Assembly: GCA_005879655.1 (NCBI GenBank)
Contig: VBJK01000110.1
Coordinates: 8,211-25,015, forward strand
Length of the DNA: 16,805 bases
Direction of reading: 5' to 3'
DNA from: Chloroflexota bacterium
GTDB lineage: Bacteria; Chloroflexota; Ktedonobacteria; Ktedonobacterales; Ktedonobacteraceae
The position numbers and the translations under genes were made by a program. The notes beneath the pieces are model-generated. The model made no database searches. It saw only the letters and a list, made by a program, of their open reading frames with translations, and had not been told where the DNA came from. Below, one piece after another: positions 2 through 16,805 of the stretch; position 1 is the first letter of the stretch; each line of letters opens with the position of its first letter.

Positions 2-120
2 CTCAAGGCTCTTTATATGCAAGGTGCTGAGATTGACTGGTCTGAGCTGTATGGACAAGAGCAATATCGTTGTGTCAGCTTACCCCCGTATGCCTGGCAG
101 CGTGAACGGCTCTGGCCTGA
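2..120 (+). other. Post-AT linker of an upstream PKS module (partial)
   Basis: Encodes the typical end of an acyltransferase didomain: IDWSELY followed by SLPPYAWQRERLW, the post-AT wrap-around linker that precedes the next domain. The catalytic part of the AT, and any KS, lies upstream of the window. Only about 30 residues separate this from the ACP, leaving no room for a ketoreductase or dehydratase. Confidence 0.85.
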
Positions 121-3100
121 CTGGTTGGACATTGAGGAGATCAGTACACCACCAGAAGAACGCGCTCCCGCTCCACACCGTTTACATCTGTCCAGTCCTA
201 ACAAGATTGAGATTAGCGGACGAGAAGTCGTCGATGTCTTGACAGATCTGTGGGCAGATGTGCTAGGGCTGGAAAAAGTGGACGCAGGCGCTAGTTTCTT
301 TGCATTAGGCGGACATTCCCTCCAAGCTCAGCGCCTACTGACATACATACGAGAGGTATTGCAGGTAGAACTTACACTCAAAGATATTTTAACCGCACCC
401 ACACCGTCTGCATGCGCTGTACTCATCAGGCGGGCACAAGAGTTGGGGGCAAGTCGCACAGGGGACGTACTGATTGAGCCTGATCCCAAGCATCGCTATG
501 AACCATTCCCTACCACCGATGTTCAGCAAGCCTACTGGGTAGGACGCTACGCCGCTGAGAGTGGCAATGTGGGTAATCATGGCTATATCGAAGTGGAAGC
601 CACTGATCTGGACTTTGAGCGGTTCGAGCGAGCTTTACGACGCTTGATTGAGCGGCATGATATGCTGCGAGCGGTGATCTTGCCTGACGGACAGCAACAG
701 GTCCTTGCCCAGGTTCCGCTCTTTGAGTTGAAGATTGTGGATCTGCGCGGGCAAGAGTCTCAGATACAAGTTGGTCAGTTGGGGCACATACGCCAGACTT
801 TGGACCATCAGATCCTCCCGGTCGAGCGGTGGCCTGCCTTTGCATTGTGGATCTCACTCTTAGACGAGCAGCACGTTCGCCTCCACCTGAGCATAGAATC
901 CATCTTTGTTGATGCATGGAGCATGAATACGCTGATCCATGAATTTATCTGTTTGTACTACGAGCCAGATCTCTTGCTGCCTGCACCGACTCTCTCCTTC
1001 CGCGACTATGTACTGGCTGAGGTGTCTCTGCGTAACAGCGTCGCGCATCAACGTGCGCGTGACTATTGGCTTGAACGCCTCTCTTCTCTGCCACCAGCTC
1101 CTCTTCTGCCACTGGTCCCCGAAAACGAGAGAACATGGCAGCGACCGCATTTTGTGCATCGGGAGGCCAGACTAGAGAGAGCGCATTGGCAACAACTCAA
1201 GGCCCATGCAGCAAAAATTGGCGTGACGCCTTCTGGGGTCCTACTGACTGCATTTGCTGAGGTTATTGCAAGATGGAGTAAGACAGCTCACTTTAGTCTG
1301 AATTTAAGTACGTTCAATCGCTTATCCTTACATAGAGAGGTGAATGAGATTGTAGGTGATTTCACCTCCTTACTGGTGCTCGCCGTTGATCACACGTCAC
1401 CTGCTACATTTGAAAACCGTGCCAGATGTATGCAAGAGCAAGTATGGAAGGACCTGGATCATTCTTCCTACAGTGGCATAGCCGTGTTAAGAGAATTGGT
1501 CAAGATGCAGGGAGAGGGCTTCAGTGCGATCATGCCCATTGTCTTTACCAGTCTGCTCATTACCGATACGACTAATCCCTTACCCCCACCCTGGGGAAAA
1601 ACGCTTTATTGTGTAAGCCAGACTCCCCAGGTCTGGCTAGATCATCAAGTGCTTGAGACGGGAGGAGAGCTTGTCTTTCACTGGCAGTCTGTTGATGCTA
1701 TGTTCCCGTCAGGTCTCATCGATGACATGTTTGAAGCTTATTGCCAGTTGCTCCAAGACCTGGCAATTCGGCAGGAGCGCTGGTCACAGGCAGTGAGGGA
1801 TATTCTACCAGAGCACCAGCGTGCCTTATTTGCACAGGTAAATGCAACCGAGGCCCCTGTTTCAGATAAACTGCTACACACATTGTTTCACGAGCAGGTG
1901 GCACAGCGGCCTGATCAGTTAGCCGTCATGTCTGCAACCCGTTTGTTAACCTACAAGCAAGTTGCTACTGGGGCACTGCAACTGGCCCATCAACTGCGAG
2001 CATGGAGGGTTCGTCCTAATCAACTGGTGGCAGTAGTGATGGAAAAAGGCTGGGAACAAGTCGTTGCCGTGCTTGGCATCTTGCACTCAGGGGCTGCATA
2101 TCTTCCTCTTGATGCCAGTCTGCCCAGAGAACGCCTATGGTATCTGCTAGAAGATGGACAAGTGGAGGTGGTAGTCACCCAGTCGTGGGTTGATAGGCGA
2201 ACTGCATGGCCAGAGCATGTGAAGCGCATTTGGGTGGATAGCCTTGATCTAGATGAAGAAGATATCCCAGAGTTAAAGTCTCTGCAACATCCCACTGATC
2301 TGGCCTACGTGATCTACACTTCTGGCTCTACCGGAGTGCCGAAGGGCGTCATGATTGATCATCGGGGAGCAGTCAATACCATCCTGGACATCAACCGACG
2401 CTTTGCTATCAACAGTGCTGATCGCGTGCTCGCACTCTCTGCCCTGAACTTTGATCTGTCAGTCTACGATATCTTTGGTCTGCTGGCAGCAGGCGGAACT
2501 ATCGTCCTCCTCAACGAGAAAATACTACGAGATCCGGCCTCTTGGCTCAGAATGATCGAGCAAGAACAGATTACGATTTGGAACACCGTGCCAGCTCTCA
2601 TGCAAGTGCTTGTCGAATATGTCGAGGCCCATTCTCGTAGAGCAGGATCAGACACAGGGCCTACCCCTATAAGCCCCTTCCCTGAGCATCTGCGCTTAGC
2701 TCTGCTGGGTGGAGACTGGATACCACTCACTTTACCGGATCGCCTCAAGCAGCTGTATCCTCACATCGAAGTAATCAGCTTAGGCGGTGCCACGGAAGCA
2801 TCTATCTGGTCTATTCTCTATCCAATTGAGACGCCAGATCATGCCCATAAACCGTGGTCTTGCTCCAGCATTCCCTATGGCCGCCCCATGGATAACCAGC
2901 AGTTCTTTGTACTCAACGATGACCTCGTAGCATGTCCGGTCTGGGTACCAGGGAGACTGTATATTGCTGGAATCGGTTTAGCCAGAGGGTACTGGCGAGA
3001 TGGGGAAAAGACTCTGGCCAGTTTCTTCGAGCATCCACGAACTGGCGTGCGGCTCTATCGTACAGGCGATCTGGGACGCTACTTGCCCGATGGGACCATC

Positions 3101-6100
3101 GAGTTTCTCGGACGTGAAGACTTCCAGGTTAAAGTGCAGGGTCATCGCATTGAGCTGGGGGAGATCGAGGCAACGCTCGTTCATCATCCAGCTATCCAGG
3201 AAGCTGTAGTTATAGCGCTTGGAGAAAACCTGGACGAGAAGCGCTTGGTTGCCTGTCTGGTCAAGAAACCAAGCTATGCTCTCACAACTGATGATGTTCG
3301 CCATTTTCTTGCGCAACGCCTGCCGAGTTATATGGTACCTACGAGTCTCCTGTTTCTGGATGCGTTGCCACTCTCACCTAACGGAAAGGTGGATCGGAAA
3401 GCTCTCTCTACTCAGGCATCATCTTTGCAAAGACCCGAAGCAGTGGATACGGGACAGGCGTCTGGCACTCTCTCTGCCCAGAAATCTGCTCTGGTCGCGC
3501 AGATTACAGAGCTGATAGCAGGTGTCCTCAAAGTCGAGCGGATAGATCCTACGCGAAATCTCCTGGAATATGGGGCAACTTCTATGAATATCTTCCGCAT
3601 TGCCAATTTGCTGGAGAGTCAGTTGCATATCCATCTGGAGTTTAGCCAGTTGTTCCGCCTTTCGAGTATCAATGCTATTGCTGCATTTTCAACCTCCAAT
3701 TCAATCTCCAATCAGAGAAAGGACACTGGCTCCGTAAACCTCCCGCGAGGAAAAGAATACACAGCAAATCCTAACGAGTCAAGTGGAAATGCACTAGCAC
3801 TCACATCAGAGGTGGGGAGAAACCATATCTCAGCTTCTTCCAATCTCATCCTCGATCCGGTAGCGCGAGAACGCTTTAAGAGCACGCAACCAGGATTGCG
3901 CCATGTGAGAAGTACAACACCTGCGGTGCAGCTCATGGTGCCAGAGCTGAAAAATGGGATCTTGCATCAGTATGCCGAACGTCGTAGCGCTCGCACGTTT
4001 CTCCAGCAACCTCTTTCTTTCAGGCAGTTCAGCGCACTGCTGGGATGTTTGCGGCAAATCACACTTGGGGGGAAGCCCAGGTACCAGTGGGGGTCTGCGG
4101 GCGGTCTCTATCCAGTACAAGCGTATGTCTATATCAAGCCTGGACGCATAGAGGGATTTGATGATGGCATCTATTATTATCATCCTGTGATACATCAGCT
4201 CTCATTGATCACGCCTCTTGTGCAGCTTGAGGGGGAGGTTTTTGGCTTTGCCAATCAGCACATCTTTGAGCAAGCAGCGTTTGTGCTGTTCCTGATTGGT
4301 CAGATGAAAGCCATGGAGCCGCTGTATGGAGAGTTAAGTAGAGACTTCTGCCTGCTTGAGGCTGGTGAAATCGTGCAACTGCTAGAGATGTCTGCCCCTG
4401 GACATCAGATAGCTCTTTGCCAGACAGGCGGGATCGGTTTCAAGAAGATCGAGCACCTGTTCGCTTTGGAGGAGGGGAGTATTTATCTCCATAGCTTGCT
4501 TGGTGGAGCATTAGATGTCAACACACAAGATACCGCACCAGATCCTACCCAACTCTATGAGCCTTTCCCTATCACCGATGTGCAACAAGCTTACTGGATT
4601 GGTCGCAACACCACGTTTGAGCTGGGTAGGGTAGGCAATCATGGCTATATAGAGGTTGAAGCGGTCGATCTAGATTTAGCACGTTCACTGCTCATCTTAA
4701 GGCAGTTGATTAAGCGACATCCCATGCTGCGTGCCATTATGTTGCCAGATGGGCAGCAGCAGATCCTTGAGCATGTTCCCCCCTTGTGTATCGCGTATAG
4801 CGATCTTTCGGGACTCAAGCAGCAGGATATGGCCACACAACTGGCGCACATCCGAGAGGCCATGGATCATCAGGTCTTTGCCGTTGAGCAGTGGCCCGCG
4901 TTGGAAATCCGTCTCTCACGTCTGCACAAGCGCTGCATCAGGATACACATCAGTATAGAATCCCTCTTTGTCGATGCCTGGAGTATACGTATCCTGATCC
5001 AAGAGTTTATTCACTTGTATCACGAACCGGAGCTACCTTTGCCCCCATTAGCACTCTCCTTCCGGGATTACGTCCTGGCAGAACTCCGGCTACAGGATAC
5101 GGAGTTGTACCGACGTTCACGAGACTATTGGGCTGCACGTCTTGCAGACCTTCCAGCAGCACCGGAACTGCCATTGGCCATCGATCCAGCAACGCTGTCC
5201 CGACCACGCTTTGTCCACCGCGAAGCACGCATCGAGGCGGAGTTGTGGCAACAGTTGAAAGCCCATGGAGCACGAGCTGGACTTACGCCGTCCGGGATCT
5301 TATTGGCTGCATTTGCAGAGGTACTGACGGTATGGAGCAAGAGTCCGCGCTTTTGCATCAATCTCACCACGTTTAATCGTTTGCCATTGCATGAAGAGGT
5401 GAATGCTCTGGTGGGAGATTTTACCTCATTACTCATGCTAGCTGTCGATAACTCTCTGCCTGCTAGCTTTGCGCAGCGGGCAAGGAACTTGCAAGAACAA
5501 ATGTGGCGTGATTTCGACCACCGCTACTATAGTGGTGTGCGCGTCTTACGCGATCTAGCTCGCCTGCGTAGAGAAAGAGACAGACCCCTTTCCACACAGG
5601 CCATGATGCCAGTCGTCTTCACCAGTTTGTTGGCGGAGGTGTCAGCTCAGAAGCATCCTGCCCCCTGGCAAGAAATCATCTATTGTGTCACGCAAACTCC
5701 TCAGGTCTGGCTCGACCATCAGGTATTAGAAGAAGGCGGGAATCTCCTGCTTTATTGGCAGGCTGTTGAAACACTCTTCCCCCCCGGCCTTTTGGATGCG
5801 ATGTTTGAAGCGTATACAAGTTTCCTGCACAGGCTGGCTACAGATGATGAGCTTTGGCAAGCTCCTTCCTGTGAACTGCTACCCAATTCACAGCTTGCTC
5901 AATGGGCCTCGCTTAACGCCACCGAAACGGCCTTTCCAGAGGGCCTGCTGCACAGTTTTTTCCTGGAGCAAGTTGCAAAGAGGCCCAGGCAACTGGCCGT
6001 GGTTTCTACAAAACGAACCCTGACCTACCAGCAAACTCTGCACGAGGCTATGGTTTTGGGGCACAAGTTGAGGCAATTGGGAGCATGCCCGAACCAACTA

Positions 6101-8704
6101 GTGGCGGTAGTCATGGAGAAGGGATGGGAGCAGGTTGTGGGAGTCCTGGCCGTCTTGCTCTCTGGAGCAGCTTATCTGCCAATCGATCCCAGGCTTCCCC
6201 AGGAGCGAGTAACCTGGCTGCTAGAGCATGGACAAGTGGAATTTCTCTTGACTCAATCGTGGCTTGATAAGCGAATTGCATGGCCAGAGGATGTACAACA
6301 CATCTGTGTGGATAGCCTTGATCTGGATCAAGAAGAGGTCAAGAGACTTAATCCTGTCCAAAGTCCAGATGATCTGGCCTATGTGATCTACACTTCTGGC
6401 TCTACTGGATTGCCCAAAGGAGTGATGATTGACCATCGAGGGGCTGTCAATACAATTTTAGATATCAATCAACGCTTTGGCGTCAGCAGCATGGATCGTG
6501 TGCTCGCGCTCTCGGCCTTAAACTTCGATCTCTCAGTCTACGATATCTTTGGTCTGCTAGCAGCGGGAGGAACAATTGTTGTGCCGCCTGAAGAAAGCTT
6601 GCGAGATCCTGCCGCCTGGCTGGACCTGCTTGTACGAGAACGGGTAACGATCTGGAATACCGTCCCGGCACTATTACAGATACTTGTAGACTCTATAGAG
6701 CTAACTAACTCGCTATGGCAACAAACAAGCCTGAGACTGGTCCTGCTGAGCGGAGATTGGATACCATTGCCCTTGCCAGAACAGGTAAAAGAGCGTCTGC
6801 CAGCTCTCCAGGTGATAAGCCTTGGAGGCGCAACGGAAGCCTCGATCTGGTCCATTCTCTACCCTATCCATGCCACCCTCCCATCCTGGAAAAGCATTCC
6901 TTACGGCAAGCCCATGCGCAATCAGCGTTTGTTCGTCTTGAATCATATGCTAGAGCCTTGTCCGATATGGGTTCCCGGTCATCTCTATATTGGTGGTGTT
7001 GGCCTAGCCATGGGCTACTGGCGCGATGAGGAAAAGACACAAGCCAGTTTCTTCCACCACCCACTCACCGGGGAGAGACTCTATCGCACAGGCGATCTGG
7101 GTCGCTATCTGCCAGATGGCAATATCGAATTTCTTGGTCGAGAGGATTTCCAGGTCAAAATACAGGGCCACCGCATCGAACTAGGAGAGATCGAGCGAAC
7201 GCTGTCATGGCATCCAGCAGTGCAAGCTGCAATTGTCACTACCATAAACGATCCTCATGGTCATAAACGTTTGCTGGCTTACGTCGTCTTGCGAGAATCC
7301 GCAGAGACGGGGCAGCCGCAAGAGACGGTCCCTGCGGACGAAATGTACGATGATGCGTTGTCCCATCTCGCAGTAGGGTTCGGCCAAACAAGCATACGCC
7401 AGGAGATAGATAAACGACTGGTCATTGATGTGGCGCATCCTACAAACCATCCAGACACGTTGCAAGCGCATAGAGAACGTCTCAGTTATCGGCAATTCTT
7501 GCCAGAGCCAATCCCCTTCTGGCAGTTCAGTGCTTTCCTGAGCACCCTCAGCCAGGCCGAGCTTGAGGGGTTGCCCAAGTACCGCTATCCTTCTGCTGGT
7601 GGCATCTATCCAGTCCAGACCTATCTGGCGATTAAAGCGCAGCGTGTCGAAGGAGTTCCAGGAGGAATCTACTACTATAACCCTCAATCATCTCAGCTGG
7701 TCATGCTTGCAGAGCATATGCACCCTGACTCCGGTATTCATGCTCCGATCAACCAACCCATTTTCGATGAGTCCGCATTCTCGCTCTTTCTGATTGGAGA
7801 TTTGACGACCATCTCTACGCTCTACGGGGAATCTGCTAGAGACTTTTGTCTGCTTGAAGCGGGATATATGGGCCAATTACTGATGATGACAGCAGTGCAA
7901 CAACACATAGGACTCTGCCCGGTGGGGGGCCTGAATTTTGAGCCGATACGCGCTTCATTTCTGCTGACCGAGCGCCATCTCCTGCTACACACCTTGCTCG
8001 GTGGGCGCGTCGATCCTGGCCGCAGTACCGGCTGGTCATTTTTGCCAGGCAACAAGACAAATGTTGCAGGCGAGGCAAGCAGAGAATTGGCACCAAGCAC
8101 AAACCCTACCATGACAGGACAAACAGGCAGGCTTGCTTCGCCAGTCACCATCGCCATGCTATACACATTCTTGAAAGAGAAACTACCGGAGTATATGCTG
8201 CCCTCAGACATCATGGTATTAGAGAGTCTGCCTCTTACAGCAAATGGGAAAGTAGATCGCAAGAATTTACCAGTACCGCAGACCCCATCCAATAGGCCAG
8301 GAACAGAGTATAGAGCACCGATATTAGAGTTAGAGCGGACAATAGCAGCCGTATGGCAAGAGGCGCTCGGTCATGAGAAAGTGGGTATCGACGACAACTT
8401 CTTTGATTTGGGAGGCAATTCTCTGCTGATGGTTCGAGCCTATGCCAGGCTCCGCAAGATACTTGACTGCGATCTCTCAATCATTGAAATGTTTTTTCAG
8501 TATCCAACTATTCACACACTGGCAGAGTTTCTCACCCAAAGGGTTGAACAGCAGGTTCAGCCTTCTCCCCCTCATGATGTAGAGCAACCGCAGCGCACCG
8601 AGAGGCGCAAAGTATCTCGCCAGCGGGAAAGGTTGACTAGACTTCGTCACCGTGCTTCGGTGGCAGGCCCAACTCACACGGAAAGGGACAGGCAAGATGC
8701 ATGA
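2..8704 (+). CDS. Hybrid PKS-NRPS: (AT)-ACP-Cy-A-PCP-Ox-Cy-A(Ox)-PCP, bithiazole-forming; 5' partial
   Basis: Cytosolic megasynthase, 2900 visible codons, reading frame open at the left edge; the ATG at 17 lies inside a PKS post-AT linker and is not the start. Domain order by nucleotide: PKS post-AT linker 2-120, ACP 209-445, Cy1 488-1800, A1 1855-3415, PCP1 3484-3690, Ox1 about 3900-4510, Cy2 4541-5870, A2 5920-8280 with Ox2 inserted at about 7440-8020, PCP2 8318-8540, basic tail to the stop. Each Cy condenses the upstream acyl thioester with cysteine and cyclises it to thiazoline; each Ox (FMN) oxidises it to thiazole. Together the two modules predict a bithiazole on a polyketide chain. No KR or DH lies between the AT remnant and the first ACP, so the upstream beta-keto group should be unreduced. 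The stop overlaps the next PKS gene, which would take over the chain. Function is confident from motifs; substrate assignment is inference. Confidence 0.95.
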   Translation, partial: LKALYMQGAEIDWSELYGQEQYRCVSLPPYAWQRERLWPDWLDIEEISTPPEERAPAPHRLHLSSPNKIEISGREVVDVLTDLWADVLGLEKVDAGASFFALGGHSLQAQRLLTYIREVLQVELTLKDILTAPTPSACAVLIRRAQELGASRTGDVLIEPDPKHRYEPFPTTDVQQAYWVGRYAAESGNVGNHGYIEVEATDLDFERFERALRRLIERHDMLRAVILPDGQQQVLAQVPLFELKIVDLRGQESQIQVGQLGHIRQTLDHQILPVERWPAFALWISLLDEQHVRLHLSIESIFVDAWSMNTLIHEFICLYYEPDLLLPAPTLSFRDYVLAEVSLRNSVAHQRARDYWLERLSSLPPAPLLPLVPENERTWQRPHFVHREARLERAHWQQLKAHAAKIGVTPSGVLLTAFAEVIARWSKTAHFSLNLSTFNRLSLHREVNEIVGDFTSLLVLAVDHTSPATFENRARCMQEQVWKDLDHSSYSGIAVLRELVKMQGEGFSAIMPIVFTSLLITDTTNPLPPPWGKTLYCVSQTPQVWLDHQVLETGGELVFHWQSVDAMFPSGLIDDMFEAYCQLLQDLAIRQERWSQAVRDILPEHQRALFAQVNATEAPVSDKLLHTLFHEQVAQRPDQLAVMSATRLLTYKQVATGALQLAHQLRAWRVRPNQLVAVVMEKGWEQVVAVLGILHSGAAYLPLDASLPRERLWYLLEDGQVEVVVTQSWVDRRTAWPEHVKRIWVDSLDLDEEDIPELKSLQHPTDLAYVIYTSGSTGVPKGVMIDHRGAVNTILDINRRFAINSADRVLALSALNFDLSVYDIFGLLAAGGTIVLLNEKILRDPASWLRMIEQEQITIWNTVPALMQVLVEYVEAHSRRAGSDTGPTPISPFPEHLRLALLGGDWIPLTLPDRLKQLYPHIEVISLGGATEASIWSILYPIETPDHAHKPWSCSSIPYGRPMDNQQFFVLNDDLVACPVWVPGRLYIAGIGLARGYWRDGEKTLASFFEHPRTGVRLYRTGDLGRYLPDGTIEFLGREDFQVKVQGHRIELGEIEATLVHHPAIQEAVVIALGENLDEKRLVACLVKKPSYALTTDDVRHFLAQRLPSYMVPTSLLFLDALPLSPNGKVDRKALSTQASSLQRPEAVDTGQASGTLSAQKSALVAQITELIAGVLKVERIDPTRNLLEYGATSMNIFRIANLLESQLHIHLEFSQLFRLSSINAIAAFSTSNSISNQRKDTGSVNLPRGKEYTANPNESSGNALALTSEVGRNHISASSNLILDPVARERFKSTQPGLRHVRSTTPAVQLMVPELKNGILHQYAERRSARTFLQQPLSFRQFSALLGCLRQITLGGKPRYQWGSAGGLYPVQAYVYIKPGRIEGFDDGIYYYHPVIHQLSLITPLVQLEGEVFGFANQHIFEQAAFVLFLIGQMKAMEPLYGELSRDFCLLEAGEIVQLLEMSAPGHQIALCQTGGIGFKKIEHLFALEEGSIYLHSLLGGALDVNTQDTAPDPTQLYEPFPITDVQQAYWIGRNTTFELGRVGNHGYIEVEAVDLDLARSLLILRQLIKRHPMLRAIMLPDGQQQILEHVPPLCIAYSDLSGLKQQDMATQLAHIREAMDHQVFAVEQWPALEIRLSRLHKRCIRIHISIESLFVDAWSIRILIQEFIHLYHEPELPLPPLALSFRDYVLAELRLQDTELYRRSRDYWAARLADLPAAPELPLAIDPATLSRPRFVHREARIEAELWQQLKAHGARAGLTPSGILLAAFAEVLTVWSKSPRFCINLTTFNRLPLHEEVNALVGDFTSLLMLAVDNSLPASFAQRARNLQEQMWRDFDHRYYSGVRVLRDLARLRRERDRPLSTQAMMPVVFTSLLAEVSAQKHPAPWQEIIYCVTQTPQVWLDHQVLEEGGNLLLYWQAVETLFPPGLLDAMFEAYTSFLHRLATDDELWQAPSCELLPNSQLAQWASLNATETAFPEGLLHSFFLEQVAKRPRQLAVVSTKRTLTYQQTLHEAMVLGHKLRQLGACPNQLVAVVMEKGWEQVVGVLAVLLSGAAYLPIDPRLPQERVTWLLEHGQVEFLLTQSWLDKRIAWPEDVQHICVDSLDLDQEEVKRLNPVQSPDDLAYVIYTSGSTGLPKGVMIDHRGAVNTILDINQRFGVSSMDRVLALSALNFDLSVYDIFGLLAAGGTIVVPPEESLRDPAAWLDLLVRERVTIWNTVPALLQILVDSIELTNSLWQQTSLRLVLLSGDWIPLPLPEQVKERLPALQVISLGGATEASIWSILYPIHATLPSWKSIPYGKPMRNQRLFVLNHMLEPCPIWVPGHLYIGGVGLAMGYWRDEEKTQASFFHHPLTGERLYRTGDLGRYLPDGNIEFLGREDFQVKIQGHRIELGEIERTLSWHPAVQAAIVTTINDPHGHKRLLAYVVLRESAETGQPQETVPADEMYDDALSHLAVGFGQTSIRQEIDKRLVIDVAHPTNHPDTLQAHRERLSYRQFLPEPIPFWQFSAFLSTLSQAELEGLPKYRYPSAGGIYPVQTYLAIKAQRVEGVPGGIYYYNPQSSQLVMLAEHMHPDSGIHAPINQPIFDESAFSLFLIGDLTTISTLYGESARDFCLLEAGYMGQLLMMTAVQQHIGLCPVGGLNFEPIRASFLLTERHLLLHTLLGGRVDPGRSTGWSFLPGNKTNVAGEASRELAPSTNPTMTGQTGRLASPVTIAMLYTFLKEKLPEYMLPSDIMVLESLPLTANGKVDRKNLPVPQTPSNRPGTEYRAPILELERTIAAVWQEALGHEKVGIDDNFFDLGGNSLLMVRAYARLRKILDCDLSIIEMFFQYPTIHTLAEFLTQRVEQQVQPSPPHDVEQPQRTERRKVSRQRERLTRLRHRASVAGPTHTERDRQDA
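209..445 (+). other. ACP domain of the PKS segment
   Basis: Carrier fold with the phosphopantetheine site LGGHSL; the Ser codon is 317-319. It presents the polyketide acyl chain to Cy1. All usual features are intact. Confidence 0.92.
488..1800 (+). other. Heterocyclisation domain Cy1
   Basis: Condensation-superfamily domain of the Cy type: it starts with YEPFPTTDVQQAYWVGR and has the late motif QTPQVWLDHQV near 1618-1650, both diagnostic of Cy. The signature at 896-922 reads ESIFVDAWS, i.e. ExxxxDxxS, with Glu where the family normally has the first Asp of DxxxxDxxS. There is no HHxxxDG condensation motif, as expected for Cy. Confidence 0.9.
1855..3415 (+). other. Adenylation domain A1, cysteine-like specificity
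   Basis: Core motifs visible: A2 GAAYLPLD, A3 YVIYTSGSTGVPKG (from 2306), A4 FDLSVYDIF, A7 YRTGDLGRY, A8 VQGHRIELGEIE, A9 LPSYMVP and A10 NGKVDRK. Aligning to PheA by eye, the specificity residues are D235 (2453-2455), L236, Y239, N278 (2582-2584), L299, G301 (2708-2710), L322 (2780-2782), I330, W331, K517 (3386-3388): DLYNLGLIWK. The known cysteine code is DLYNLSLIWK, so one position differs (Gly for Ser at 301). Cysteine is the likely substrate given the adjoining Cy and Ox domains. Unlike A2, this domain is not interrupted. Confidence 0.88.
3484..3690 (+). other. Carrier domain PCP1 (GATSM type)
   Basis: Helical carrier domain in which the pantetheine site reads YGATSM instead of the usual GG(H/N)SL; the Ser codon is 3581-3583. 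It lies between A1 and Ox1 and should hold the first thiazoline/thiazole intermediate. Confidence 0.82.
3740..3799 (+). repeat. Linker direct repeat, copy 1 (before Ox1)
   Basis: A 60-base block in the PCP1-Ox1 linker, paired with 15805-15864 in gene 3 without gaps: 46 of 60 bases match by my count, including a perfect 22-base run (3777-3798 against 15842-15863). Peptide here is LPRGKEYTANPNESSGNALA; 14 of 20 residues match the other copy. Weaker similarity extends upstream to about 3719. It is not found before Ox2. Confidence 0.85.
3900..4510 (+). other. Thiazoline oxidase domain Ox1 (after the PCP)
   Basis: Nitroreductase/SagB-like FMN oxidase fold: RRSARTF (about 3978-4000), then GSAGGLYPVQAYVYI (about 4091-4135), GIYYYHP, and SRDFCLLEAGEIVQLL. 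It dehydrogenates the PCP-bound thiazoline to thiazole. It is placed downstream of PCP1 as a free-standing domain, whereas Ox2 is embedded in A2. Confidence 0.86.
4541..5870 (+). other. Heterocyclisation domain Cy2
   Basis: Close paralogue of Cy1, beginning YEPFPITDVQQAYWIGR and ending with TQTPQVWLDHQV. The signature at 4958-4984 is ESLFVDAWS, again ExxxxDxxS rather than DxxxxDxxS. It joins the first thiazole to the second cysteine and cyclises it. Confidence 0.9.
5920..8280 (+). other. Adenylation domain A2 (cysteine) interrupted by Ox2
   Basis: N-terminal part with A3 YVIYTSGSTGLPKG (from 6380), A4 FDLSVYDIF and A8 IQGHRIELGEIE up to about 7310, then the Ox2 insertion, then A9 LPEYMLP and A10 NGKVDRK (about 8140-8280). 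Specificity residues by eye: D (6527-6529), L, Y (6539-6541), N (6656-6658), L, S (6749-6751), L, I, W, K (8249-8251), i.e. DLYNLSLIWK, the established cysteine code. The insertion site between A8 and A9 is the one described for epothilone EpoB-type modules. Confidence 0.92.
7440..8020 (+). other. Thiazoline oxidase domain Ox2 (inside A2)
   Basis: Same FMN-oxidase family as Ox1: RERLSYRQF, PSAGGIYPVQTYLAI (about 7589-7635), GIYYYNP, ARDFCLLEAGYMGQLL. It is inserted between A8 and A9 of A2 and oxidises the second thiazoline. The flanking linkers are polar and low in conservation. Confidence 0.88.
8318..8540 (+). other. Carrier domain PCP2
   Basis: Standard carrier domain with DLGGNSLL; the pantetheinyl Ser codon is 8420-8422. 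It carries the bithiazole acyl chain for transfer to the KS of the next protein. Confidence 0.92.
8541..8701 (+). other. Basic C-terminal tail, possible docking segment
   Basis: About 54 residues after PCP2 rich in Arg, Gln and Glu (for example RTERRKVSRQRERLTRLRHR). Such charged, probably helical tails at the C-terminus of PKS/NRPS proteins commonly mediate docking to the next subunit. No defined docking family is recognised by eye, so this is inference. Confidence 0.45.
8681..8687 (+). promoter_or_regulatory. Ribosome binding site for the KS-AT-KR-ACP gene
   Basis: GAAAGGG lies nine bases before the ATG at 8697, inside the end of gene 1. It decides the start: the alternative in-frame GTG at 8652 has no comparable site and would overlap gene 1 by 53 bases. 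The same heptamer precedes gene 3. Confidence 0.6.
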
Positions 8705-11700
8705 TGCAATAGTATCTGAGACAGACATTGCGATCATAGGGATGAGTTGTCGCTTGCCTAGCTGCAAAAATATACACGAGTTCTGGCAAAACTTACAAGA
8801 GGGGAAAGAGTGCATCGCTCAGCTATCAGAAGATCAATTGCGGGCATCACTCTTAAAATATTACGGCTCGATACCAGAGAGCGAGCTTGCATCCTGGCTC
8901 AATGATCCCAACTACGTCAGGGTTGCAGCAAGGTTAGAAAATATTGACTTATTTGCCGCCACGTTTTTTGGCTATAACCCAACCGAAGCAGAATTGATAG
9001 ATCCTCAGCAACGTATTTTCCTGGAGTGTGCCTGGGAGGCACTGGAAGATGCTGCCTATAATCCTGAAACCTATAAGGGCCTGATCGGTGTCTACGCTGG
9101 TTCAGAGCTGAATATGTACTTCCATGGCCTACAGGCGGATACCATTCCTTCTGCCAGTGGACTCTTGAGAGTCATGAGCAATGCCAACGACTACCTGACC
9201 ACGCGTGTTTCTTACAAGCTCAATCTGCAAGGGCCGGGCATGACTGTACAAACTGCCTGCTCAACCTCCCTAGTAGCGGTTCACGTGGCCTGCCAGAGCT
9301 TGAAAAGTGGTGAATGCGACATGGCTTTAGCGGGGGGTGTGGTAGCTCGCCCAATACAAGAAATGGGCTATTTCTATCAAGAGGATGGTTTCCTTTCTCC
9401 CGATGGGCATTGCCGACCGTTTGATGCTAAAGCGCAAGGAACTCTTTTCGCCAATGGTGGCGTCGGTATTGTCGTCTTAAAGCGTCTGGCGGAGGCACTG
9501 GCGGATGGCGATAACGTTTATGCAGTCATTAAGGGTTCAGCAACGAACAATGATGGGAGATTGAAAGCGGGCTATAGCGCTCCCTCCATTGGCGGTCAGA
9601 TGAAAGTGGTTTTAGAGGCTATGGCGGTAGGTGATATTGATCCCGCATCCCTTAGCTATATTGAGGCACATGGAACGGCAACCCCACTGGGAGATCCCAT
9701 TGAGATTGCTGCACTTACTCAGGCATTTCGTACCAGAACTCAACGCAAAAATTTCTGTGCCATTGGAGCACTCAAATCCAATATGGGACATCTGGGGGCC
9801 GCAGCAGGGGTGGCTGGACTGCTCAAAACGTGCCTGGCACTCAATCATAAAATGATCCCTCCCAGCCTGCATTATGAACAGCCTAACCCGCAGATAGATT
9901 TTGCCAACAGTCCCTTTTATGTGAACACTCAACTCACCGCATGGACGACTTCTACACTGCCACGCCGTGCCGGAGTGTGTTCTTTTGGCATAGGGGGAAC
10001 CAATGCACATGTCATTCTAGAAGAAGCTCCAGATTGGTATGTAGCACAGGATCGGCGCAAAGCACAAGCCCTACCATCCTGGCAGTTGCTCATCCTTTCG
10101 GCGAAGGCAAGCTCGGTATTGGAGCACATGAGTGTCAATCTGCTTGACTACTTAAAAAATCATCCTGAGCTGCATCTGGCAGACCTCGCTTTTACCCTCC
10201 AGGTTGGTCGTCAAGCCTTTCCTCATAGACGCATATTAGTTTGTCAGACCATTGCAGATGCTGTGCACCAACTTGAAGCGCAACAAGGCATTTTCTCCGT
10301 CGCACCTGCTGGGGAGCAGCAAGTTGTTTTCATGTTCCCCGGTCAGGGACCGCAATATGTAAACATGGGACGAGAACTCTACGAGACAGAACCACCCTTT
10401 CGAGAACAGGTTGATCTGTGCGCTATGCTCTTAGTCCCGCACCTGCATGCTGATCTGCGCACAGTTATCTATCCGCCCACAGGAGAGGAAGAAGCAGCCC
10501 AGAAACAGTTGGATCAGATGGCGCTAGCCCAACCAGCTCTCTTTGTGATCGAATATGCTCTGGCTCAACTATGGATGCAGATAGGAGTTCGTCCTGCGGC
10601 CATGATTGGCCATGGCATTGGCGAATATGTGGCGGCTTGTCTGGCTGGTGTGTTGTCTCTGCAAGATGCCCTCTTGCTTGTCACCTTACGCGGCCAACTG
10701 ATGGATCAACTGGCCGATGGTGCTATGCTGGCCGTTTCCTTGCCCCAGGAGCAGATCCTCCCCTTACTTAACGCCCAGCTTTCTGTGGCGGCCCACAACA
10801 GCCCGACCGATTGTGTCGTTTCGGGTCCGGGCGATGCTCTTCTTCACTTGCAAAATGCTCTGGGTGAGCAAGGGATTGCCTGCCGACTGCTCCATGTTTC
10901 GCATGCCTCCCACTCTCAGATGGTCGAGCCACTCTTAGCACCATTGAGCAATGCCGTAAAAAAGCTGAGTCTGCACCCTGCCAAGGTCCCCTATATTTCC
11001 AACGTTACTGGAAAATGGATCACTGAGCGGGAAGCAACTGATCCTGAGTATTGGGCCAAGCACTGGCGTCAGACGGCGCTCTTTGCCGAGGGCATGCAAC
11101 TGCTGCTCGACTCTGCCAACATGGTCTTGCTTGAGGTAGGGCCGGGACATTCCTTATCGACTCTGGCTCGGCGGATGGAGGCCGCAGGGATGGGGCCTGA
11201 CCGTGCCCCTACGGACCATATCATCCTGCCTTCTCTGCGTCATCCTCAAACCCAAATCTCAGACCGTGGCTTTTTGCTCAATACCAGTGGGCAGCTCTGG
11301 TGTGCGGGGGTAATCATCGATTGGTCCCAACTCTACGCTGGTGAACAACGCCGTCGTATTCCTCTGCCCACCTATCCCTTTGAACGGCAACGTTACTGGG
11401 TCTCCCCCATCATGGCATGCACGGGAGCAAACCCTGTCCCTACGGCCCCCACACAAAGTCATCAGGGGCCTTCCTCGATGCAGTTGCGCAAAGAGCCAGA
11501 CCTGACCCAGTGGTTCTCCGTTCCTTCTTGGAAACGTTCTCCATTGCCCGCTTCCCTCTCCAAACAAGCCGCATGCAAAGCCTGCTGGCTTATCTTTATA
11601 GACTCTGTGGGATTGGGCTTCCAGCTGGTCAGCCATTTGCGAGGACAGGGGGACATGGCCCTTACAGTGCGTGTGGGAACGCAATTTGGCAAGATGAATG

Positions 11701-13529: not shown

Positions 13530-13864
13530 GCAATGTTCCCCAGCGTATCGCTACGCTTTCACCTCAGAGGCGTGAGCTTCTTTTACGCCGCTGGAAAATG
13601 AGAGAGCAGCAAGATGTCTTGCAACAAGGCGAGGAACAAGAGCAGGGGCAAGTTCCACTCCTGCTAGCATATGATCGCACCGCCTCTACACACTTTCCGC
13701 TCTCCTTTGCGCAGCAGCGGCTCTGGTTCTTGGATCAGTTGGAGCCAGGGGATACGGCGTATCTTCTCCCTGGGACTTACCAACTATGCGGTCTCTTAGA
13801 TGTCCAGTGCTTTGAGAAAAGTGTAGTGGAGCTGGTGCGCAGACATAGGTCATCCATCCTGTGA
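13526..13864 (+). CDS. NRPS condensation domain, N-terminal fragment ended by a frameshift
   Basis: 112 residues. After a polar N-terminal region (LSPQRRELLLRRW, typical of the leader ahead of a C domain) comes the C1 motif LSFAQQRLWFLDQLEPGD and then FEKSVVELVRRH. In an intact condensation domain this runs straight on as RRHE.LRT.F (motif C2). Here the frame leaves the family after RRH, reads SSIL and stops at 13862-13864. The matching C-terminal part of the same domain resumes one frame over, at 13849. It overlaps the PKS stop by four bases. This is best read as the 5' piece of a broken gene rather than a genuine small protein. Confidence 0.85.
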   Translation: MSNVPQRIATLSPQRRELLLRRWKMREQQDVLQQGEEQEQGQVPLLLAYDRTASTHFPLSFAQQRLWFLDQLEPGDTAYLLPGTYQLCGLLDVQCFEKSVVELVRRHRSSIL

Positions 13865-14960
13865 ACCCCCCAGGACAACCACAAGCCCCTTCCCTGCTAC
13901 CAGTCATTGACCTACAAAGGCTGAATCAGCAGGAGAGAGTAGCACAGCAGCTGCGCCTGGCCACACAAGAAGCTCAGCACCCCTGTGATCTGGAGAACGG
14001 ACCATTACTACGTTTCCACTTGCTCCGTCTAACAGATCAGCAGCATATCTTGCTTCTTACCCTGCATCATATTATCTCTGATGGCTGGTCAATGGATATA
14101 CTGCTCCGCGAACTGAGCGAAGTGTACAGTGCTTTTATTCAGGGGCAATCTCCAACTTTATCTGCGTTACCAATCCAGTATGTAGACTATGCACTCTGGC
14201 AACGACAGTGGCTTGAGGGCGAGGTCCTACAGAAACAGCTTGACTACTGGAAGCAGCAATTAGTGGGGGCACCACCGATGTTAAGCCTGCCTACCGATCG
14301 ACCGCGACCACCAGTACAGACCACCAGGGGCACTCAGCAATCGTTGCTACTCTCTGCTGATCTGCTGCAACAACTCAGGGCCTTGAGTCGAGCTGAGAAT
14401 GTCACGCTGTTTATGATCGGCCTAGCGGCTTTTCAAGTCTTGCTGATGCGCTACAGTGGAGAGCCAGACATTGTCGTGGGTATTCCCACCGCCAATCGGT
14501 CACAAAGGGAGCTAGAAGGCTTGATTGGCTTTTTCGCTAATACATTAGCGTTGCGCACAGATCTGTCGGGTAATCCCAGCTTCCAAAGTCTCCTCAGTCG
14601 CGTGCGAGAGGTAGCCTTTGAGGCTTATGCGCATCAAGACCTGCCATTTGAAAAGTTGGTGGAAGAACTAGCAATAGAGAGGGATTTGAGCCGTCATCCA
14701 CTCTTGCAGGTCTTCTTTACTTTACAGAACACCCCCCTCGCAGGTCTGGCGCTGCCGGGCATCTCCTGCCATCTGATAGAGCCTGAGACGCTAACAGCCA
14801 GATTCGATCTGAGCTTACTGCTTGTTGAGATGGAGCAAGGGCTGCTGACAGTAGCAGAGTACAATACAGATCTGTTCAACGAAGCAACTATTACCCGGCT
14901 GTTGGGCCACTGGCAGGTCCTCTTAGAGGGGATTGTGCGTAATCCAGACCAGCCCATCGA
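13694..14960 (+). other. Condensation domain, split across two frames
   Basis: C1 (LSFAQQRLWFLDQ) is in frame 2; C3 HHIISDGWS (14065-14091), C4-type YVDYALWQRQWL, C5-type GIPTANRSQRELEGLIGFF, and HQDLPFEKLVEEL are in frame 1. HHxxxDG is intact. Motif C2 is missing through the deletion near 13847. The domain should condense the ACP-bound polyketide with glycine; as it stands it cannot be translated in one piece without a frameshift. Confidence 0.85.
13843..13851 (+). other. Deletion/frameshift junction in the C domain
   Basis: The frame-2 codon CAT (His of RRH, 13844-13846) is followed by AG and then GTC ATC CAT CCT (from 13849) in frame 1. In intact C domains about 16 residues of the ESLRTTF...GQPVQ type lie between RRH and the VI.P segment. 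AG can be the remnant of a CAG (Gln) codon. The net loss is therefore 3n+1 bases with n about 15, estimated from family length. Frame 1 has TAG at 13846-13848, directly before the resumed frame. Confidence 0.75.
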
Positions 14961-16805
14961 AACGCTTCCCCTACTTACAGCATCAGAAATGCATCGACTC
15001 CTGACGGAGTGGAACAACACAGCTAGCAATATCCCATACGACCTTTGTCTGCACCAACTCATCGAACAGCAGGTCGCACAAACGCCGCACGCCATTGCTG
15101 TGATCTGCGAGCAGGCTGGAACAAACCATAATCCTCACGTTCTCACCTATGGTGAACTCAATGCGCGGGCCAATCAACTGGCTCATCGTCTGCGTGCGCT
15201 CGGCATCGGCTCTGATAAGCCGGTCGCAGTCTGTATGGAACGTTCACTGGAACTGCTAGTAGCACTCCTAGCCATTCTCAAAGCCGGGGGGGCCTACATA
15301 CCGCTCGACCCCGCTTATCCGACAGAGCGTTTAGCTTGGATGCTCACAGATGCCCAACCCACTGTCGTGCTCACTGAGCAACGTTTCCTGGCACATCTGC
15401 CCAATCATGGACAGTTGACGCTCTGTTTAGATCAGTTTGCAGAAGTCTGGACCTCCCGCCCGCAGGGCAACCACAAGAGATTGCCCTGTGCGCACGGGTC
15501 TAAGCAAAGTCGCACCAATCTCGTAAACACAACACTGCCAGACCATACAGCCTACGTGATCTATACCTCAGGCTCGACCGGGACTCCGAAGGGAGTGATG
15601 GTCAGTCACCGCAATGTAGTGAACTTCTTGCGCGGCATGGACGAGCACATTGAGGCATCAACCCCAGGCATCTGGCTGGCAGTCACCAGTATCTCGTTCG
15701 ATATCTCCGTCTTGGAATTGTTCTGGACGCTTACACAGGGTTTTCAGGTCGTTCTCCTTTCAATCCCCAACGGGTCGTCGGAAAAGGGCATTGGCTTCCA
15801 CTGGCTCCCCGCAGGGCGGGTATACATACCAAATCCGAATAAGTCAAGTGGAAATGCACTAGCCTTTAGCCTGTTTTATTTTGCCAACGATGCTGTAAAG
15901 CAGACAACTGCGGATGGCTATAAATTGCTGCTTGAGGGCGCAAAGTTTGCCGATACTCATGGTTTTCAGGCGCTGTGGACACCGGAACGGCACTTTCATG
16001 AGTTCGGTGGACTCTATCCCAATCCTGTTGTCACCAGCGCCGCTGTGGCAGCGGTGACACAACACATCCAGATTCGGGCTGGCAGTGTGGTCTTGCCCTT
16101 GCATAATCCCATCCGTGTAGCAGAGGAATGGGCAGTCGTCGATAACCTCTCACATGGGCGTGTGGGTATCGCCTTTGCCTCTGGCTGGCACACCAACGAT
16201 TTTGTCTTTGCCCCTAATAAGTATGCCGAGCGTCGAGAGATTATGCAACAGGATATAGAGACGGTACGCAAGCTGTGGCGCGGTGAAAGCATCACCTTGC
16301 AAGGGGGAACGGGCAAGAGTATCGAAGTGAAGACCTTTCCACGACCAGTTCAAGCAGAACTCCCCGTCTGGATCACCAGTGCGGGCAGTCCTGAGACGTT
16401 TCGCTTAGCAGGAGAAGCCGGAGTGAATGTGCTCACACACCTGCTTGGTCAAGATCTGGACCAACTGGCCGCCAAAATTGCTGTGTATCGAGCAGCATGG
16501 CACCAACATGGGCACGATGCACAAGGCAAAATCGGTAACATCACCTTGATGCTCCATACCTTCATTGGCACCGACCTGGAAACAGTTCGTGAAACGGTTC
16601 GTCAACCCTTTCGTGCGTACTTGAGAAGCTCGGTTGATCTTCTCCAGCCACTTGCTCGCAGTCTGGGGCTGGATATCAATGCCGATACCTTTCATGAGGA
16701 TGATATGCAGGCGTTGCTTGATCATGCCTTTGTACGCTACTTTGAGAGCAGTGGGCTGATGGGAACTGTTGACTTCTGTCTCCCCATAATTGAGAGCTTG
16801 CAGAC
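13849..16805 (+). CDS. NRPS C(rest)-A-MOx, glycine-type, amide-forming module; frameshifted 5' end, 3' partial
   Basis: Open from 13849 to the right edge (985 codons, no stop). It has no convincing start of its own: GTG 13861 and ATG 14092 lack a ribosome binding site, and the latter falls inside the catalytic motif. Contents: remainder of the condensation domain with HHIISDGWS (14065-14091), A-domain core 15040-15780 through motif A4, and a luciferase-like FMN monooxygenase (MOx) from 15865 to the edge. The visible specificity residues D, I, L match the glycine code DILQLGLIWK; the rest lies downstream. In the myxothiazol MtaG type of module, a glycine A-MOx-PCP hydroxylates the glycine alpha carbon and the chain is released as a primary amide. 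Together with 13526-13864 this is one gene broken in its C domain. The long intact frame implies a recent lesion or a sequence error. A5-A10, PCP and any TE are beyond the window. Confidence 0.9.
15040..15780 (+). other. Adenylation domain A3, N-terminal part (A1-A4), glycine-like
   Basis: A1 LTYGELNARANQLA, A2 LKAGGAYIPLDP, A3 YVIYTSGSTGTPKGV (from 15553), A4 SFDISVLELFWTL. Specificity residues: D235 15700-15702, I236 15703-15705, L239 15712-15714. DIL is how the glycine code begins; the other seven positions lie beyond the MOx insertion and outside the window. Confidence 0.82.
15805..15864 (+). repeat. Linker direct repeat, copy 2 (before MOx)
   Basis: Partner of 3740-3799. Peptide here is LPAGRVYIPNPNKSSGNALA, ending right where the MOx fold begins (FSLFYFA). 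It includes the perfect 22-base run 15842-15863. It lies at the junction between motif A4 of A3 and the inserted monooxygenase. Confidence 0.85.
15865..16805 (+). other. Luciferase-like FMN monooxygenase (MOx) domain inserted in A3; partial
   Basis: Bacterial luciferase-type TIM-barrel monooxygenase of the kind embedded in NRPS A domains: FSLFYFA, WTPERHFHEFGGLYPNP, IRAGSVVLPLHNPIRVAEE, VDNLSHGRVGIAFASGWH, TSAGSPETFRLAGEAG and LTHLLGQ. It uses reduced FMN and oxygen. In glycine-specific A-MOx modules it hydroxylates the alpha carbon ahead of amide release. About 313 residues are visible and the domain is nearly complete; A5 should follow just beyond the edge. Confidence 0.9.

Follow-up and report, generated by a model that had tools for sequence, protein, structure and literature searches.

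Two similar linkers in a Ktedonobacterales synthetase cluster are probably in-frame insertions of a mobile repeat with an antisense promoter-like site and a CRISPR-repeat-like end

The synthetase genes and their two similar blocks

The window, i.e., the whole stretch of 16,805 nucleotides that was analysed, has a domain order (positions 2-16805) of two nitroreductase-containing NRPS modules, a KS-AT-KR-ACP PKS module and C-A-MOx, which we take to resemble that of myxothiazol-type clusters. The first NRPS reading frame gave profile matches to two condensation, two A, three PCP and two nitroreductase (Ox) domains. The domain reading of the earlier note was confirmed, with the luciferase-like MOx (PF00296) in an A-domain protein and the nitroreductase domain twice in the first protein. 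Each of the two NRPS frames contains one copy (A or B) of a repeat, which was scored with R1, a sequence-only model built from an alignment of 18 copies that include both copies of the window. The features are as follows:

2..8704, plus strand: open NRPS reading frame that hosts copy A (ORF and profile matches; 2,900 codons, open at the window start)
3696..3798, no strand assigned: copy A (R1, 56.7 bits), read in frame as NSISNQRKDTGSVNLPRGKEYTANPNESSGNAL between PCP1 and Ox1
3700..3722, minus strand: CRISPR-repeat-like end of copy A, degenerate (alignment; hairpin without its GGG arm)
3754..3782, minus strand, antisense to the gene: promoter-like site of copy A, TTGACT-N17-TATTCT (spacings of 16-18 allowed)
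3777..3798 and 15842..15863, no strand assigned: 22-base perfect run (sequence comparison)
13861..16803, plus strand: open NRPS reading frame C-A-MOx that hosts copy B (ORF and profile matches; runs off the window)
15753..15862, no strand assigned: copy B (R1, 76.7 bits), in-frame translation LSIPNGSSEKGIGFHWLPAGRVYIPNPNKSSGNAL, located between MOx and the first half of the A domain
15758..15774, minus strand: CRISPR-repeat-like end of copy B, TTTCAATCCCCAACGGG on the plus strand, with 17 bases identical to part of the G021 array repeat
15819..15847, minus strand, antisense to the gene: promoter-like site of copy B, TTGACT-N17-TATACC (consensus scoring)
15880..16623, plus strand: MOx, luciferase-like monooxygenase (PF00296; profile match)

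The similarity that the earlier note had described was reproduced in all its figures. In an ungapped alignment, the blocks 3740-3799 and 15805-15864 have 46 of 60 bases in common, 14 of the 20 encoded residues are identical (LPRGKEYTANPNESSGNALA and LPAGRVYIPNPNKSSGNALA, respectively), and the longest exact run common to both is the one of 22 bases. Repeated 22-mers occurred in none of 200 single-base shuffles of the window, and the remaining repeated 22-mers of the window itself start at 2309-2463 and 6383-6537, inside two paralogous A domains. The extent given for the blocks was nevertheless too short. A repeat search gave a longer match of 81 bases at 73% identity (3718-3798 and 15783-15863), and in cmsearch nearly all of the 115 positions of R1 were covered by both window copies, which makes the true length about 105 bases. 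R1 gave no third window copy at E values of 0.001 or below, and at that sensitivity the claim that the second nitroreductase domain lacks the block holds. Another product of the repeat search, an inverted match of 19 bases (7784-7802) within the region of the second nitroreductase, was rejected as an element copy because, by eye, it does not extend as the element.

Within-cluster recombination or gene conversion, by which one linker would have been copied onto the other, could account for the 22-base identical run. However, the two copies are only 73% alike over 81 bases, each of them matches the family over nearly the whole of R1 (though both are among its 18 seeds), and many donors would be available where copies are frequent, so that this origin has a very slight chance of being the right one.

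Dispersal and probable insertion of the repeat

The 20-mer GTCAAGTGGAAATGCACTAG was found in one genome of the genome_contigs collection, that of Dictyobacter aurantiacus (order Ktedonobacterales), at the end of a GntR-type gene. With up to three mismatches it occurred in 12 of 47 Ktedonobacterales genomes, including 23 copies in G021 and 12 in G028; the reversed 20-mer, used as a control, gave none in these two genomes and five over all 47. With R1, at least 139 places were found in 13 of the 47 genomes (at least 76 in G021, at least 24 in G028, at least 13 in G036, and one to five in each of ten others), and these counts are lower bounds because the best 79 candidates per genome were scored. 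In a sample of 400 genomes of the phylum, nine matched R1 at E 1e-4 with the best nine candidates per genome scored, and all nine are Ktedonobacterales. A longer variant (L158) gave matches in two of six genomes, with upstream flanks that are alike. Rfam gave no match at the gathering threshold across 15 sources, viral contigs contained no exact match of the 20-mer, and the plasmid collection gave no match when queried with the region of copy A. The element is short, multicopy, dispersed and without a transposase gene, as MITEs are, and no autonomous partner element was found.

The set examined further comprised 126 copies, that is, the 139 R1 places minus 12 that were not fetched and minus the half copy L121:2080-2132; the weak match L199:1267-1347 (E 0.096) was also left out. 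Sets of 56 are the near-complete copies outside the window with both ends judged covered. When the two window copies were added to the 126, seven of the 128 had 60 or more open codons to the left and to the right, namely the two of the window, L160, and L069, L096, L156 and L202, of which the last four have open frames around the copy that are candidate genes only. Evident coding insertions number three of the 128, all in NRPS genes; outside the window this leaves one of 126 copies deep in an evident gene, an NRPS read in the same frame. Among the first 65 copies, 14 overlapped an ORF model (from a simple caller) with fewer than 60 codons on one side, and 51 lay outside all models. The models that flank these 51 copies both ran in the direction of the element in 28 cases, both against it in 10 and in mixed directions in 12, the remaining one being unassigned. 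In a search for a transposon that would have the two halves of the element as its ends, the partial (half-element) matches lay between ORF models or at their edges. In 13 of the 56 near-complete copies, the left junction coincides with the in-frame stop codon (TAA or TAG) that closes an upstream frame of 100 codons or more; in four, the right junction coincides with a stop codon of this kind on the opposite strand.

As an explanation of the two blocks, the earlier note had offered either a recombination footprint or a transferable linker cassette that plugs flavin domains into megasynthases. Both window copies do precede a flavin domain. However, the block is absent from all 120 A-MOx homologues among the matches listed (alignment, by eye), it does not appear at the Ktedonobacterales loci L122 and L123, and the PCP-Ox side gave the same result in six close homologues (P0121 and P0123-P0127). 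Flavin domains therefore occur without the block in proteins with the same PCP-Ox or A-MOx order. The motif patterns of the linker were met in none of 240 homologues, other copies are mostly outside long frames, and one lies within an A domain that has no flavin domain near it. The flavin cassette was rejected on the A-MOx and PCP-Ox homologues without the block, and we give it almost no probability; what stands of the proposal is the footprint, as that of a mobile repeat.

The copy away from a flavin domain (L160) lies in an NRPS A domain of G034, taken as Ktedonobacter robiniae on account of an identical protein, between the motifs GPTE and GRPIAN. This stretch spans 78 residues in K. robiniae, compared with a median of 36 and a next longest of 50 in the 65 of 120 listed proteins with a readable pattern, K. 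robiniae included. The copy adds about 42 residues and has TTA at both edges; homologues of the site read PLGRP or similar. To judge from these alignments, the site suits an insertion with a 3-base duplication. Over the 56 copies the signal of target-site duplication was weak (2 of 28 positions, p = 0.021 and 0.022, uncorrected). The element ends read YTA-RTTTCAATC or YTA-RTTGCAGTATCC at the left and TGCA-YTA at the right, and terminal inverted repeats are short at best, YTAR and then (T)TGCA, clearest in L008, L010 and L160 (by eye).

For the window copies, the comparison was made with P0001, an A-MOx protein named as Chloroflexi and 73% identical, and with the PCP-Ox homologue P0123. Together with the spread of the element, P0001 points to a Ktedonobacterales relative as the source of the window. 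The linker from VVL to AFSLF has 35 residues with copy B and 22 in P0001, and the distance from NAIAA to the next shared block is 50 residues with copy A and 29 in P0123 (hand counts). Since these gains are smaller than the element length, roughly 22 native residues at copy B and roughly 12 at copy A would have been lost or have drifted. By this comparison neither copy is a clean insertion, part of the native residues being missing. The perfect run stops just before MOx because the right end of the element (GCA followed by CTA) falls there, and the codons beyond, L-A-F-S-L, look native beside P0001.

The three in-gene copies share one frame (NPN.SSGNAL or KPNTSSVIAL). This frame is stop-free in 36 of 85 copies, the three in-gene ones included, and the other two frames are so in 51 and 13, and the common frame is therefore no strong sign of a selected peptide. 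As regards the host genes, 81 positions at the start of the C-domain profile have no counterpart in the C-A-MOx open frame. C-domain-like sequence lies upstream of this frame, at 13529-13861, in another frame (one frame by eye). The gene may be frame-broken, or the record in error. The NRPS frame of K. robiniae (L160 1991-4780) stops early past the A-domain region, without a PCP match. Because of the incomplete C domain at copy B and the early end in K. robiniae, the host genes may be decaying in two of three cases, if their records are not in error; the frame that hosts copy A is unbroken over its 2,900 codons. The synthetase insertions look tolerated rather than useful.

The antisense promoter-like site and the CRISPR-repeat-like end

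Most copies have in common the blocks GTCAA and AGTATA, which on the minus strand are TTGAC and TATACT, about 17 bases apart. With the best site taken in each of 58 copies, the spacing was 17 in 42, 16 in 11 and 15 in five; in copy A, an equally scoring site with a spacing of 15 was chosen when spacings of 15-19 were allowed. On the minus strand, 45 of 56 copies had a best site with at least 9 of 12 consensus bases; this score was reached by 5 of 56 on the plus strand and by 24 of 280 shuffles. Both window copies score 9 of 12 on the minus strand. The 22-base run shared by the window copies, read on the minus strand, comprises the upstream edge and the -35 region of this site. The site reads outward through the left end of the element. 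This likeness to the consensus predicts a conserved sigma-70-type promoter antisense to the synthetase.

The left end itself resembles CRISPR repeats. The left-end pattern of a variant repeats every ~75 bases in G032, where it is a CRISPR array with a 37-base repeat and with cas10, cmr3 and cmr1 within a few kilobases. More arrays with related repeats were found in G013, G021, G024, G025, G026, G028, G037 and G038. Read in the direction of the promoter, the array repeats end in ATTGAAAC or ACTGAAAG and similar, presumably the usual type of crRNA handle. In G028 (L243 1076-9783), a type III-B operon with the order Cas10-Cmr3-Cmr1-Cmr4-Cmr5-Cmr6 is followed by a SAVED-PDDEXK-type effector, and arrays lie on both sides. 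In G026 (L246, 2024 onward), an array of CTTTCAGTATCC repeats is followed by TTTCAATCCCCAATGGGTTCAGCAGGCCATTTAGCC-like sequences near the G021 repeat type, the two types adjoining.

The 126 copies and the two window copies were compared, whole and unselected, with six array repeats. The G021 repeat was strictly best for 63 of 74 copies from G021 and for both window copies, versus none of 52 from other genomes (23 in G028, 13 in G036, 3 in G046 and 13 others). The G021 copies scored a mean of 21.9 with the G021 repeat, versus 12.1-14.4 with the other repeats and 11.6-12.3 with shuffled ones, and the window copies 26.5 versus 11.0-16.5. For the G028 copies, the repeats of G038 and G013 (32.4 and 29.4) gave higher scores than the repeat of G028 itself (20.2). 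An earlier test on copies with a left end recognisable by an author-written pattern agrees with this result. By sequence comparison, copies resemble the repeat type of their lineage.

The CRISPR likeness spans ~24 of 37 bases, after which a gap of ~10 bases is needed. R1 matched four of 11 array loci searched, singly and at E 0.011-0.76, and arrays of the same type occur in genomes without an R1 match (G013, G024, G025, G037 and G038). With respect to RNA folding, an RNAalifold consensus of 18 copies contained no pair over the whole element, and among eight copies folded singly the two of the window were like shuffles (z -0.25 and 0.16) and two others had z < -2. A hairpin was tested in 26 left ends of the CAGT type, with gapped, tandem and TTTCAATC-type ends left out. 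Its inner helix was 97.1% paired with 10 cells changed on both sides, a value as high being reached in none of 500 shuffles, and its outer helix was 76.9% paired. Pairs with two-sided change and further pair types, two of the five measures, were not above shuffles (224 and 115 of 500). Nine of the ten two-sided changes are one C-G to U-A difference, which may be a single event, and this position varies likewise between arrays.

These data bear on a MITE-like repeat with an outward promoter, in which the CRISPR likeness would have arisen by convergence or chance and no CRISPR machinery would take part. A likeness of only ~24 bases plus a hairpin, R1 matches to 4 of 11 array loci and a whole element without a consensus fold would all agree with it, and the size, the dispersal and the YTA flanks fit a MITE. 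However, the likeness tracks the lineage (63 of 74 copies versus 0 of 52), and the variable C-G/U-A position of the hairpin varies between the arrays too. We consider chance likeness unlikely, though not negligible, and prefer a repeat-like end related to CRISPR repeats.

Another layout to be compared is that of omega RNAs, in which the scaffold lies at the element end and the guide in the flank. A non-autonomous relative of IS200/IS605 TnpB/IscB elements would have this same layout, its outward RNA being an omega-RNA-like guide scaffold and not a crRNA mimic. The stop-codon junctions (13 left versus 4 right of 56) suggest the oriented insertion that such an element would show, and COG0675 transposases are reported to be by far the most frequent among the over-represented COGs of K. 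racemifer (PMC3236041). The end of the element, however, resembles the repeats of arrays near III-B cas genes in G028 and G032, which makes a TnpB/IscB relative quite improbable beside a CRISPR-repeat-like end.

On the leader side of two arrays (L241 4871-4915 and L243 10171-10215), a promoter-like TTGC.T-N17-TATACT is separated from the repeat by 11 bases, and by eye these sequences are loosely alignable with the tail of the element. R1 gave no match to the leaders of L241 and L243, and descent of the element from a CRISPR leader is for that reason only a hint.

Proposed explanation and comparison with known systems

We hypothesize that the two blocks of the window are independent in-frame insertions of a mobile Ktedonobacterales repeat of ~105 bases, with an antisense promoter and a CRISPR-repeat-like end. 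The dispersal, the homologues without the block and the K. robiniae insertion with its TTA edges argue for independent insertion, and we regard the hypothesis as a whole as likely. The parts differ in strength: a mobile repeat is very likely, the identity of its left part as a promoter plus a CRISPR repeat is probable on sequence likeness, and a working guide or decoy RNA made from the element is a possibility that we rather doubt.

Read in its own direction, which is the reverse of that of the synthetase, the element would be a small transcription unit of a promoter and one degenerate CRISPR repeat, with the repeat part ending in ...ATTGAAAC or ...TACTGAAA. Since the unit would consist of a promoter and then one repeat at the element end, its RNA would continue into the neighbouring DNA, which would take the position of the spacer in a crRNA. 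That the unit is transcribed, that Cas6 processes the RNA, that Cmr is loaded with it and that any effect follows are steps that we infer. The element seems to insert at YTA or YTAR, in many cases where a gene has its stop codon. Its two landings in the window would have been in interdomain linkers, where a stop-free frame turned it into a linker of 33-35 residues, probably without a function of its own. Tentatively, and with some reserve, it can be proposed that a promoter with one CRISPR repeat became a mobile element with at least 70 copies in one genome. The gene end next to each landing site would then serve as the spacer of a crRNA-like antisense RNA loadable by type III-B (Cmr) complexes. 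Operons could be tuned by many such self-directed guides, or Cas proteins titrated by a decoy, and the element would sometimes be translated in an NRPS.

If this is true, CRISPR repeats exist outside arrays as a dispersed, mobile and self-promoting unit in free-living bacteria, and three topics that are usually separate would be linked, i.e., MITEs, solitary CRISPR repeats and megasynthase domain linkers. Whether type III complexes make use of guides from flanking genes could then be studied across a genome as a natural experiment, and there is a warning in it that what is taken for a 'conserved linker' of an NRPS may be the debris of a repeat. Dispersed CRISPR-repeat elements of such a kind were not found in the literature as covered by titles and the openings of abstracts, with most subscription journals outside the coverage. 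For K. racemifer, 601 annotated transposase genes and 7 CRISPR repeats are reported (PMC3236041).

Among known small repeats, ERIC, Correia/NEMIS and RUP, as described in PMC2229807, are likewise ~105-130 bases long with TA-containing ends, lie mostly outside genes and have no room for a transposase gene. Unlike them, the element has a conserved outward promoter-like site, a CRISPR-repeat-like end and weak terminal inverted repeats. MITEs can be fused in frame into genes, and this is most striking for the Rickettsia palindromic elements, which likewise are small dispersed repeats in frame in protein genes (PMC10969869, PMC2229807). In contrast to these, a long stable stem-loop was not found in the window copies, which fold no better than shuffles, and coding insertions are rare (3 of 128) and all in NRPS genes.

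The CreA guides of CreTA modules carry degenerate repeats and are likewise degenerate CRISPR-repeat-like sequences outside arrays. The element differs from CreA in its many copies and in having the flank, and not a fixed spacer analogue, after the repeat (PMC8501985). The solitary repeat units or RNA anti-CRISPRs (SRU/Racr) of viruses and prophages (PMC10651486) likewise have one CRISPR-repeat-like unit downstream of a promoter-like site. The element has a comparable likeness to the CRISPR repeats of the host lineage over ~24 bases, and its repeat-like part lies just downstream of a promoter-like sequence, recognised by sequence likeness in 45 of 56 copies at 9 of 12 or more. Unlike SRU/Racr as presented there (PMC10651486), it is dispersed in tens of copies in one genome, is mostly outside long frames, appears to be mobile and has extra bases in the repeat-like part.
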